Origin: Flavobacteriales bacterium
Lineage (GTDB): Bacteria; Bacteroidota; Bacteroidia; Flavobacteriales_C; GCA-002722245
Assembly: GCA_002722245.1 (NCBI GenBank)
Contig: PBLA01000019.1
Span: 62,001-126,000, forward strand
DNA: 64,000 bases
Reading direction: 5' to 3'
Program-made: the position numbers and the translations under genes
In this document: positions 6,166 through 34,114 of the stretch, in pieces
How positions within the stretch are numbered: the stretch's first letter is position 1
How the letters are laid out: each line of letters opens with the position of its first letter
Notes under the pieces: generated by a model
Seen by the model: the letters and a program-made list of their open reading frames with translations, nothing else
The model's database searches: none
Told to the model about the DNA's origin: nothing

Positions 6166-6854
6166 CGTTCATATCTCTAAAAGAAGGTGAATATATTTTT
6201 ACTCATAATCGAGACGAAAAACTTTCTCGAAAATCTTCTCTACCTCCAAAAGAACGAACATTTGGAAAACAGAAATTGATTTACCCTGTTGATGCCGATA
6301 AAAATGGAACATGGTTTTGCTGTGATAAAGAAAATCGTGTCATTTGTATCCTAAATGGCGCGTATAAAAAGCACGTCTCTCAGCCTCCCTATAAAAAAAG
6401 TAGAGGAATTGTAGTGTTGGAAGCTTTTCTACATAACTCGTTTCATTCATGGATTGAAACTGTTGACCTGAGGGGCATAGAACCCTTTACAATGGTATTG
6501 TTTGAAAAAGATACTTTAATCGAATTCAGATGGGATGAGAATCAAAAACATACAAGCCTTTTGCCTACAACGCAGCCTCATATTTGGAGTAGTGCGACCC
6601 TCTACACGAAAGATGCCATTCATTTGCGTGAAAAATGGTTGGCAGAATGGTTAAAACAACATCCTTCATCTCCAGAAAGTCTGTTTCAATTCCATAATTA
6701 TGGTGGTGAAAGCACCAAAGAAACCAAATTAAAAATGGAAATCATGGGCAGTCACCAAACGGTAAGTATTACACAATTGCATTTAAACAAATTGGATAGA
6801 AAGATGAAGCATGTTAACTTTGTGTCCCAAGAAAAAAGTAATTTACATTTTTAA
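6153..6854 (+). CDS. NRDE (TANGO2-like) family protein
   Basis: 233 residues starting MCTVTF, with the defining NRDE motif at residues 19-22 (THNRDE) and the following conserved stretch DADKNGTWFC and VICILNG. The Cys at position 2 is conserved in the family and could become an N-terminal nucleophile. The family (called Ser/Thr-rich T10, NRDE or TANGO2) is linked in animals and some bacteria to heme handling, but its chemistry is unsettled. It overlaps the DinB gene by 13 nt, and its TAA shares one base with the ATG of the next gene (TAATG), so translation of the three is probably coupled. Confidence 0.87.
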   Translation: MCTVTFISLKEGEYIFTHNRDEKLSRKSSLPPKERTFGKQKLIYPVDADKNGTWFCCDKENRVICILNGAYKKHVSQPPYKKSRGIVVLEAFLHNSFHSWIETVDLRGIEPFTMVLFEKDTLIEFRWDENQKHTSLLPTTQPHIWSSATLYTKDAIHLREKWLAEWLKQHPSSPESLFQFHNYGGESTKETKLKMEIMGSHQTVSITQLHLNKLDRKMKHVNFVSQEKSNLHF

Positions 6855-7855
6855 TGGAATATAACGATTTTATCATACCACTCGCTTGGCCTGAGGCACC
6901 CGTAAGAACCGCTGGTGGTCCTTATGATAAAATTCTTCAGCTCTTCAATTTGCATCGAAATGGGTATTACAAAGCGGGGCATGCTGCTTTTCTTCTAATT
7001 AACAGTACAACCGGCCAAGTTGACTATTATGACTTCGGACGCTATATTTCTCCTAATAAAAACGGGAGAGCAAGAAGCAAAGAAACTGATCCCGAAGTCA
7101 TTTTTGATGTAAAGGCAAAGGTTAAAGATCACGTAATCACCAATTTTGATGAGATTATCCAATCCATAGGCTCCCATCCTCAAACCCACGGTGAGGGAAC
7201 GTTATACGCAGGTATTCAAAGGGATATTAATCATGCAAAGGCGTTAGCGTTTATTCAGAAAATTCAAGAAAAACCTTACACGCCTTATGGACCTTTTGTG
7301 TACGGTGGCACCAATTGCTCTCGATTTGTAGCTCAAACAATTGCCTTTTCTGTTAAGGCTGGAGGAAGAAAATTTCTATACCCTTGGTACCTTACTCCCG
7401 CCCCACTTGGAAATATCTTTTATAGCTCAGAGAAAACATTATATAAACTAAATGAATCCGGTCAGATAGATGCCCTTCATATATACGGTGAAATGAAACA
7501 ATTCAATTTCATGGCAAAAATCATGAAGTATGAAAAAGGCGAAACAACTCCTGACCCAACAAAAGCCGGACTCAATAAAGTGACCGCTCCTGCCAGACAT
7601 CCTGGACTTTCCCCAAATGCCCAATGGCTTGGAGGTATTGGCGCAGGAGCTTGGTATGAAATCACATATAAAAATGCGGAATCAATTGAAGTAAAGAGAA
7701 CACAAGGAAATGGTGATGTAGACTATATTTACAAATTTACTGGTCCTGTTCAAGCAATTGATTTTGACTCAGAATTTAATTTTGAACATGGAAGCCACGG
7801 TATGGTAACTCTTCTATCCCAAAAAGGGAAAACCGTAAAATTTGTTAGGGTTTAA
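6854..7855 (+). CDS. predicted permuted papain-like protein of unknown function
   Basis: 333 residues; I recall similar proteins in Bacteroidota only as a domain of unknown function (DUF6695-type). It opens with PLAWPEAPVRTAGGP. The N-terminal part carries GHAAFLLIN with His43, and a later GGTNCSRFVAQTI with Cys155. A His placed before the Cys, with the Cys at the start of a helix in an NCSxF context, resembles circularly permuted NlpC/P60-type folds (YiiX, LRAT), which are amidases or acyltransferases. The C-terminal 100 residues form a separate beta-rich piece. It has no signal peptide. The catalytic reading is inference from motif order. Confidence 0.6.
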   Translation: MEYNDFIIPLAWPEAPVRTAGGPYDKILQLFNLHRNGYYKAGHAAFLLINSTTGQVDYYDFGRYISPNKNGRARSKETDPEVIFDVKAKVKDHVITNFDEIIQSIGSHPQTHGEGTLYAGIQRDINHAKALAFIQKIQEKPYTPYGPFVYGGTNCSRFVAQTIAFSVKAGGRKFLYPWYLTPAPLGNIFYSSEKTLYKLNESGQIDALHIYGEMKQFNFMAKIMKYEKGETTPDPTKAGLNKVTAPARHPGLSPNAQWLGGIGAGAWYEITYKNAESIEVKRTQGNGDVDYIYKFTGPVQAIDFDSEFNFEHGSHGMVTLLSQKGKTVKFVRV

Positions 7856-7900: not shown

Positions 7901-8743
7901 ATGATCGTTATTGCTGACATGGGTGCAACCAAAACAGACTGGAGTTTTGCTGAAGGGTCTACGGTTATTAAAAATATTCAAACCAAAGGTTTTAACCCCT
8001 ACTTTTATTCTACAGGAGAAATTATTGATCTTCTCAAGCCTGATTTTGCAGAGGAAGATTTCAGTGATGTGGAAGAAGTGCATTTTTATGGTGCTGGCTG
8101 TAGCACAGATGAAAAAATTAAAACAGTTGAAAATGCGATTAAAATTTATTTCCCTTGTGCATCTGTAGAAGTAAGTCACGATTTACTTGCTTCAGCAAGA
8201 GCATTATGCGGTTATTCCCCTGGAATCGCGTGTATTTTGGGAACAGGTTCAAACACCTGTCTTTATGATGGCACCTATATTATCGCAAATAATCCCTCCT
8301 TAGGTTTTTTACTCGGAGATGAAGGTTCGGGAAGTGACTTAGGTCGAGAATTGATAAAAGCTTATTATTATGGGAAATTAACACCTGAGATTGATCAAAA
8401 ATTTGAACAACAATTTAATACAAATAAGAATTCCCTTTTAGGAAATGTGTACAGTACAGATAAACCAAATGCTTTTTGTGCTGCACTAACTCCATTTTTG
8501 AGTCAGAATATTGATGAAGCTTGTATTGAACAGATTGTAAAAAACTCGTTTCGAATATTTTTTCAGAGTCATGTAATTACCTACGATAATTACAAAAAAC
8601 TCCCTATAAACTTTGTAGGTTCTATCGCTCATCACTTTAAAAAACAATTATTAGAAGTAGCTAAAGAATTTGAAACTAGAGTTGGTATAATTATAAAAGC
8701 ACCTATAGGAAAACTCATTGAATTTCATAGTCATATGGAATAA
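7901..8743 (+). CDS. BadF/BadG/BcrA/BcrD-type ATPase, N-acetylglucosamine kinase-like
   Basis: 280 residues of the ASKHA (actin/hexokinase) fold: phosphate-1 loop DMGATKTDW at 5-13, phosphate-2 region GTGSNTCLYDG near 118, and GDEGSGSDLGRELI near 143. This arrangement is that of the short Bacteroidota proteins related to mammalian N-acetylglucosamine kinase, which phosphorylate amino sugars released by wall or chitin turnover. The adenosine motif near the C-terminus (FVGSIAHHF) is also present. It lies 45 nt after the papain-like gene and could be the last gene of that run. The sugar specificity is not shown by the sequence. Confidence 0.82.
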   Translation: MIVIADMGATKTDWSFAEGSTVIKNIQTKGFNPYFYSTGEIIDLLKPDFAEEDFSDVEEVHFYGAGCSTDEKIKTVENAIKIYFPCASVEVSHDLLASARALCGYSPGIACILGTGSNTCLYDGTYIIANNPSLGFLLGDEGSGSDLGRELIKAYYYGKLTPEIDQKFEQQFNTNKNSLLGNVYSTDKPNAFCAALTPFLSQNIDEACIEQIVKNSFRIFFQSHVITYDNYKKLPINFVGSIAHHFKKQLLEVAKEFETRVGIIIKAPIGKLIEFHSHME

Positions 8744-8800
8744 AAATGACACAAAATAAATTTTATGCTTACGCGTAACACGTTCTTTTATTAAAAATAT

Positions 8801-8966
8801 TCCTCACAAATTAAAGCTTGAGAAACTTTAGGACAAATTGATTTAGGGAAAAGCTCAAAAAGGCCTATGGCGTGCCCGTAACTTCGGTTCGGCGGGATTA
8901 CAGAATCCTTTGGCATCTCTATGCATACTTATATGAGGGTTTCTTCAAGCGCCCAATTTGTGAGGA
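8801..8966 (+). ncRNA. ssrS: structured RNA, probable 6S RNA (6S-Flavo/Flavo-1-like)
   Basis: A 166 nt rod-like fold is visible. A perfect 12 bp closing helix pairs 8801-8812 (TCCTCACAAATT) with 8955-8966. A second helix pairs 8816-8826 (GCTTGAGAAAC) with 8939-8950, with one bulged base. An open internal bubble follows (about 8827-8858 opposite 8912-8938), and the apex has AAAGG/CCTTT (8859-8863/8907-8911), a UUCG-capped hairpin 8876-8892, and a hairpin 8895-8908. A long helix with a large central bubble is the architecture of 6S RNA, the RNA polymerase-binding promoter mimic. The C(UUCG)G loop fixes the plus strand as the transcript. No clear TAnnTTTG promoter or terminator was found. Confidence 0.55.
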
Positions 8967-9115
8967 TTTACCTTCCGGATTACAACTTTATATTCATGTG
9001 ATTCATCGTCTTAATCACCCCTTACATCTAAAACAACACAACACCACGTAACGACAGATTTATTCTGCCGTAAACTTAATTTACACCGCATTTACAAACA
9101 CATACCACCAACAAC

Positions 9116-9412
9116 ATGAACATTCCATTTAGCAAAACAAGCACAATTGAGAAGGAAAACATCACGAGTTTAGCCTTTGGCAACCATGATGTTTTAAGAG
9201 ATGAACAGCTCAAAATTCAACGAACAAGAAAGTTGAAAAGAGCTGAGAAGTTAGGCAATGCTTACAAATCTAAAACGAAGATCTTATTTAGAAGTATGAA
9301 AGGCCTATATCGAGTAGAAACCACTGTTTGGGCTACTACTGAACAATATGTTTCATTAAAGGGAGGCGTTTTGATTCCCATCCATTGTATTAAGAGTGTA
9401 GATTTTTATTAA
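9116..9412 (+). CDS. conserved small protein of unknown function
   Basis: 98 residues, basic, no signal peptide or membrane segment. The C-terminal block VETTVWATTEQYVSLKGGVLIPIHCI is a pattern I recall from short uncharacterised proteins of many Flavobacteriales and other Bacteroidota. The N-terminal half is a charged helix (RTRKLKRAEKLGNAYKS). The shape, a short beta-rich domain of about 60 residues ending in a CIKxVDF strand, hints at a small beta-barrel, but no function can be named. It stands alone between the 6S-like RNA and a bidirectional terminator shared with the HU gene. Confidence 0.75.
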   Translation: MNIPFSKTSTIEKENITSLAFGNHDVLRDEQLKIQRTRKLKRAEKLGNAYKSKTKILFRSMKGLYRVETTVWATTEQYVSLKGGVLIPIHCIKSVDFY

Positions 9413-21132: not shown

Positions 21133-21164
21133 TTTGCTTAATTACAAGTTTGTGAGTACATTTG
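21133..21164 (+). promoter_or_regulatory. promoter of the SRP RNA gene
   Basis: The -33 element TTTG (21133-21136) and -7 element TACATTTG (21157-21164) are exact Bacteroidota housekeeping consensus (TTTG, 20 bp spacer, TAnnTTTG). They sit just upstream of the RNA start at about 21169. Confidence 0.9.
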
Positions 21165-21168
21165 TAGT

Positions 21169-21265
21169 GGGTAAGTCTTATACGACCAGCTCCTGCTGAA
21201 CTCCCCCAGGACCGGAAGGTAGCAAGGGTAGGCGGTTGTAGCGGTGCGATATAAGTAGCTTACCC
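21169..21265 (+). ncRNA. ffs: signal recognition particle RNA (4.5S-type)
   Basis: About 97 nt. Ends pair: GGGTAAG (21169-21175) with CTTACCC (21259-21265), continued by TCTTAT with ATAAG. The apex holds the conserved Ffh-binding region CCAGGACCGGAAGGTAGCAAGGG, with GGAAGG as the GNRA tetraloop and AGCA asymmetric bulge of SRP domain IV. The RNA is the short type without an Alu domain. It is followed directly by a T-run at 21266-21272 that with the closing stem acts as a terminator. Confidence 0.95.
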
Positions 21266-21285
21266 TTTTTTTATGTCAGCGTTTC

Positions 21286-33878: not shown

Positions 33879-34051
33879 TTTGGGACCTCGCAGAAACGAT
33901 GTTTGGAGGAGAAAGTCCCTTTGGACTTTCGGTATAGTTTCGGTTTATCGAAAGCAGTTTTGAAAAAACTGAAGGTGCGTGGGACTTCGGGGTTTGAATC
34001 CCTCACACAAAAAAAGCCCAGCTAATGCTGAGCTTCTTTGTGACCTCGCAG
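33879..34051. repeat. small hairpin-rich element flanked by duplicated tRNA-Arg 3' ends
   Basis: The 15-mer TTTGnGACCTCGCAG, which is the end of the tRNA-Arg gene, occurs at 33879-33893 and again at 34037-34051 in the same orientation. Between them an 18 bp inverted copy of the tRNA T-arm (33986-34003, 17 of 18 bases) and three hairpins (AAAGTCC-CTTT-GGACTTT, TTCG-GTTTAT-CGAA, CAGTTTT-GA-AAAACTG) fill about 140 bp. The shape is like a small inserted element or a decayed second tRNA. The open frame over it is not judged a gene. Confidence 0.5.
34014..34034 (-). terminator. intrinsic terminator of the tRNA-Arg gene
   Basis: Minus strand AGCTCAGC-ATTA-GCTGGGCT followed by TTTTTTT, located 6 nt after the tRNA 3' end. 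Confidence 0.85.
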
Positions 34052-34114
34052 GGATTCAACCCCCGAACCTCCTGAGCCGTAATCAGGTGCTCTATTCAGT
34101 TAAGCTACAAGGCC
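34041..34114 (-). tRNA. tRNA-Arg (anticodon ACG)
   Basis: 74 nt cloverleaf. Acceptor GGCCTTG/CGAGGTC (two G-U pairs), D stem GCTT/GAGC, anticodon stem CCTGA/TCAGG with loop TTACGGC and anticodon ACG, variable loop AGGTT, T stem CGGGG/CCCTG, then discriminator A. No CCA is encoded. Unusual bases: D-loop has G18 A19 instead of GG, and the T-loop has T56 instead of C56, so the 19-56 tertiary pair is swapped to A-U; A15 and T48 also form the A-U type of Levitt pair; T54 is replaced by G. The stems and pairings argue for a working tRNA. Wobble A34 would need TadA. Confidence 0.85.

Follow-up and report, generated by a model that had tools for sequence, protein, structure and literature searches.

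The window analysed here, a 64,000-nt stretch of a Flavobacteriales genome, holds a gene-free gap of 372 nt (8744-9115), the same size as reported in the initial annotation, between a 280-aa ORF (7901-8743) and a 98-aa ORF (9116-9412), both on the plus strand. Both flanking ORFs have conserved counterparts within the genus, with 81-82% identity for the first and 70-73% for the second, and neither matched a Pfam family at E<=0.001. Further upstream, a 333-aa protein (6854-7855, plus strand) matches the Pfam TseH-like family (171.6 bits) and DUF6695, and shares 66-67% identity with its counterparts in the genus's two other examined genomes. The gap is occupied by a dedicated structured-RNA gene at 8798-8972 on the plus strand, matched from end to end by the covariance model R3 (131.5 bits, E 4.1e-25, model positions 1-192 of 192).

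On the plus strand, 8797-8972 folds with a minimum free energy (MFE) of -54.9 kcal/mol, compared with -39.0 +/- 4.2 for dinucleotide shuffles (z -3.76; 1 of 200 shuffles as good), and the rod initially proposed at 8801-8966 is thereby confirmed, as are its perfect 12-bp closing helix, its second helix and its large open bubble. In the closing helix, the 5' arm UCCUCACAAAUU (8801-8812) pairs perfectly with the 3' arm at 8955-8966, and all 12 pairs are double-changed in the family. The 5' arm of the second helix (8816-8829), which carries an AAACU element, pairs with GGGUUUC..UCAAGC (8936-8950) around a one-base bulge; this helix covaries, and its AAACU/GUUU is near-invariant across 63 aligned sequences. 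The central bubble leaves 14 nt unpaired on each side of the MFE fold (8830-8843 and 8922-8935); throughout the 63 aligned members, its 5' arm measures 12-18 nt and its 3' arm 11-18 nt. Beyond it rise helices 3-5 of the apical rod, with the 5' arms UAGGGA, GCU and AAAGG (8844-8863), all of which covary in the alignment A6, and the 3' arms CCUUUGGC and UCUCUA (8907-8921), found in the MFE fold and in the alignment A4. An internal loop formed by the core motifs GGCGUGCC (8869-8876) and GGAUUACAGA (8895-8904) corresponds to a GGCGnGCC/GGAUUACnGA pair that is strongly conserved among the aligned members, GGAUUACnGA itself being present in many of them. The rod ends in a single apical hairpin region (8875-8894) with a C(UUCG)G loop (8882-8887). 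UUCG-capped hairpins had been announced in the plural; the UUCG is present (8883-8886), but it caps one hairpin only, and the apical hairpins of relatives vary between a single short loop and a pair of long stems.

Folding is comparably favourable on the minus strand (z -4.10) and therefore does not by itself settle the orientation of the gene. The initial annotation had relied on the C(UUCG)G loop to choose the plus strand. Its choice was right, but its argument is weak since the loop is not kept in close relatives, and we rejected it as evidence of strand. The plus strand is favoured instead by two covariance models: R2 scores 175.8 bits on the plus strand versus 29.7 bits on the minus strand, and R3, with 131.5 bits on the plus strand, reports no match on the other.

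Promoters of this phylum follow the consensus TAnnTTTG. An imperfect match, GTTCTTTT, lies at 8782-8789 (plus strand) as a -7-like element and probably acts as the promoter, from which the RNA would start near 8794-8800. Its position is conserved: alignment of upstream DNA from the family revealed a GTTCTTTG/T element approximately 10-25 nt 5' of the closing helix, which in most of the sister genus reads GTTCTTTG. Two other RNA genes of the window carry comparably placed elements, namely the small SRP RNA at 21162-21269 (plus strand; RF04183, 106.7 bits), with the TAnnTTTG element TACATTTG at its 5' end, and the tRNA-Arg (acg) gene at 34040-34114 (minus strand), with another such promoter, TATCTTTG, upstream. 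At the opposite end of the rod, most relatives have a T-run resembling an intrinsic terminator directly after the closing helix; it is eroded to AUUUACC in the window.

Two further genomes of the genus carry the RNA, as revealed by DNA similarity (84-86% identity), and clear homologues exist in a sister genus of the same family. Eight family sequences compose the alignment A4, on which R2 was trained. In A4, 93.1% of the cells are paired, 19 pairs are double-changed, and 47 double-change cells are counted compared with 19.4 in shuffles, a value reached in none of 500. Sliding the register yields at most 10 such cells in any position, and because A4 had been fitted to a structure shifted by one column, its construction did not favour the correct pairs. 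Once the structure was placed in the correct register in R2 and R3, distant members gained approximately 10-40 bits. R3 was built from 34 sequences, among which one congener was included and the window copy left out. In that alignment, 48 of 52 pairs are double-changed, with 417 double-change cells versus 131 in shuffles, and extension to 63 sequences brings the figures to 804 versus 265 expected. The structure is thus conserved by compensatory change in homologues, the kind of evidence on which the initial annotation had made its reading depend. Alignment of all matches with MAFFT followed by RNAalifold gave no consensus structure. When searched against 149 related genomes, R3 found exactly one copy in 64, with E values mostly far below 1e-7, and in the genome of the window it found only the present locus, with nothing further at E<=10.

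Recognition of this RNA by existing Rfam models is a different matter. The gathering cut-offs of the three relevant 6S families are 85 bits for RF01685 (6S-Flavo), 60 bits for RF01693 (Bacteroidales-1) and 46.4 bits for RF00013 (6S/SsrS). At gathering scores, the Rfam scan of the window found the SRP RNA and tRNA and no family in the gap. The best match below threshold was RF01693, which aligned collinearly over its whole length with 22.4 bits, 38 bits under its cut-off; RF01685 gave no match at the locus, and RF00013 gave none in this region or in the genome of the window even at E<=10. The label 6S-Flavo used by the initial annotation is consequently not tenable in its strict Rfam sense, the window lying below every Rfam cut-off. 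Those sister genomes that do match at the same place score approximately 28-36 bits with RF01685 and 25-31 bits with RF01693. Weak matches to these two models at other places in two genomes (G000 and G004) were not accepted.

Each of the three families nevertheless shares features with the window RNA. First, RF01693, which Rfam itself describes as "6S-Bacteroidales RNA suggested", has the same rod layout, the same GGCGnGCC/GGAUUACnGA core and the same AAACU/AGUUU helix, and aligns collinearly over its full length not only in the window but also, at 28.7 bits, in the sister genome G002. In the Rfam model only the inner hairpin is paired, the closing helices being left unpaired. Second, RF01685 matches relatives of the same family (G005, G007 and G009) at the same place, whereas the window RNA has no match, and the three high-scoring genomes examined (G072, G107 and G139) keep the RNA beside zapA, unlike the window. 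Finally, RF00013, the E. coli type, has in common with the window RNA the closing helix, the large central bubble and the apical rod that define the general 6S layout.

The models built here join these families. R2 matches accepted Rfam relatives, scoring 35.9 bits on a genuine Bacteroidales-1 member (L006) and 39 bits on two loci that score with 6S-Flavo (L024 and L027). R3 coincides with RF01693 at the same loci, with up to 184 bits (L089), and with RF01685 above its cut-off at L156 and L163, with up to 97.7 bits; genuine RF01693 members are thus matched by both R2 and R3, and at L104 the R3 locus is matched by both Rfam models. In a phylum-wide sample, R3 further matches 16 genomes outside the class, and at 7 of these 16 loci RF00013 is the only Rfam family matching at E<=0.1, over its full length and with up to 40.8 bits (E 6.6e-5), against a cut-off of 46.4. 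These 16 RNAs (L177-L192) are diverged 6S RNAs, many with CCCACnGUG before the 3' arm of the bubble, and look like the link between canonical 6S RNA and that of Bacteroidia. Profile homology to accepted 6S families is therefore established through R3, the window RNA being tied to the E. coli type indirectly, by a chain of profile matches. The RNA of the window is best described as a 6S RNA of Bacteroidota that is intermediate between the Rfam families.

Such RNAs are not new to the phylum. 6S RNA and pRNAs of Bacteroides were reported from dRNA-seq (PMC7366714), the B. thetaiotaomicron transcript presumably being that of the RF01693 locus; expression of a 6S RNA was also documented for Flavobacterium psychrophilum (PMC9723704), and RF01685 and RF01693 were both described earlier (PMC2864571). 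The window RNA is a new member of the 6S family, invisible to Rfam. Neither the unification of the Rfam families nor the zapA-6S-rny locus described hereafter was found in the literature searched, to which the survey of Wehner (2014) did not belong, and priority is uncertain.

Gene neighbourhood was not used in building R3 and hence supports the 6S identity independently. In 34 of the 64 R3-positive genomes, zapA lies directly upstream of the RNA on the same strand, at a distance of 17-239 nt and without exception as to side or strand, and 32 of the 64 have rny within this 3-kb locus. Of the 16 genomes outside the class, 14 have zapA in the upstream position, and rny is present in 15. The ssrS gene of beta- and gamma-proteobacteria is reported to be always immediately after zapA (PMC7641849), an order thus common to RF00013 and the relatives of the window; the downstream neighbour in Bacteroidota differs, being rny rather than a folate ligase gene or EVE. 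Together with the bridging of RF01693, RF01685 and RF00013 by R3, the strong covariation and the single copy per genome, this linkage in relatives substantiates the 6S reading of the initial annotation. We consider it highly probable that the 6S (SsrS) RNA of this genome is encoded in single copy at 8798-8972 and has a polymerase-blocking role.

Structure alone cannot tell which form of RNA polymerase is bound by such a rod. According to two reports on Ms1 (PMC4191392, PMC9130861), this actinobacterial RNA has a structure akin to that of 6S RNA but associates with the core enzyme, and the window RNA could by analogy be a 6S-like RNA directed to the core rather than to the holoenzyme. Ms1 is a 6S-like, polymerase-binding rod and belongs to another phylum. 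The coincidence of the RNA family defined by R3 with RF00013 at the same loci and its retention of the zapA linkage of ssrS both argue against such an RNA, as do the pRNAs of Bacteroides 6S RNA, whose synthesis requires polymerase to initiate on the RNA, and we regard this alternative as improbable.

Still less probable is that the RNA acts in cis on the 98-aa ORF (9116-9412), as its leader or attenuator, a notion suggested by the position of the RNA 150 nt upstream of that ORF on the same strand, and by the order 280-aa ORF - RNA - 98-aa ORF, which is kept in the genus's two other RNA-bearing genomes. Against it, the RNA is conserved while the genes around it are entirely different in the sister genus, where an MntR-like gene (named by sequence inspection) lies downstream of it, and in other families, where it neighbours zapA/rny, DnaJ and others; the T-run directly after the closing helix in relatives also speaks against a leader. 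Although a 59-aa ORF (8872-9051) and a 41-aa ORF (8791-8916) mechanically overlap the rod, a coding or chance origin deserves almost no credence, given that substitutions preserve pairs rather than codons (the 804 double-change cells versus 265 expected) and that the freely varying length of the apical hairpin breaks any frame.

6S RNA imitates an open promoter and blocks RNA polymerase in a reversible manner. In the 6S RNA of the window, the central bubble held between two helical arms would resemble such a melted promoter, and the RNA most likely occupies the active site of the holoenzyme containing the housekeeping sigma factor, thereby blocking the use of promoters under low nutrients. On recovery, polymerase would copy the 5' arm of the bubble (8830-8843), the putative template strand by analogy with E. 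coli 6S RNA, into a short pRNA, with the 3' arm (8922-8935) as the presumed non-template strand; the pRNA would then refold the 6S RNA, leading to release of the enzyme. Transcription, polymerase binding, pRNA synthesis and growth-phase control are accordingly what we infer for the window RNA from its kinship. A TAnnTTTG mimic was sought in the 3' arm of the bubble of the 63 members and none was clear, many showing a C(A/U)UGUC-like sequence, so that promoter mimicry is argued here from shape and not from sequence.

In the family of the window, zapA is not upstream of the RNA. The genome of the window has zapA on contig 28, followed by rny approximately 70 nt away, and the gap between them contains no R3 match; the zapA-rny gaps of the other family members examined, somewhat longer in the sister genus, are also devoid of R3 matches. 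In two sister-genus genomes (L119 in G005 and L121 in G006), this gap contains a CGCACC/CGCATCAA...TTGGTGCATTTTTTTT stretch that resembles a terminator hairpin and may be what is left of the closing helix of 6S RNA. As zapA-rny is intact yet empty in the genome of the window, the 6S gene appears to have moved. The simplest reading is that in this family it departed from an ancestral zapA-6S-rny locus and resides today, still as a single copy, between the 280-aa and 98-aa ORFs in the genus of the window or beside the MntR-like gene in the sister genus. Given that zapA-ssrS linkage is shared with proteobacteria, the zapA-6S order would predate the split of the two phyla. On balance, we find it reasonably likely that RF01685, RF01693 and the RF00013-like RNAs outside the class form one vertically inherited Bacteroidota 6S family, whose ancestral zapA-6S-rny locus predates the split between Bacteroidota and proteobacteria, and whose single gene was relocated in the family of the window.

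One unified model finds 6S RNA in 64 of 149 related genomes, versus 4 for RF01693 and none for RF01685 at their cut-offs, and the seeming absence of 6S RNA from much of the class is thus largely due to the narrowness of the models and their division into several families. The zapA-6S order, maintained across phyla, provides a sequence-independent anchor for locating 6S genes, and turns a functional link between zapA and 6S RNA into a testable question. Finally, the bridging alignment exposes the conserved loop GGCGnGCC/GGAUUACnGA as a candidate contact with RNA polymerase.
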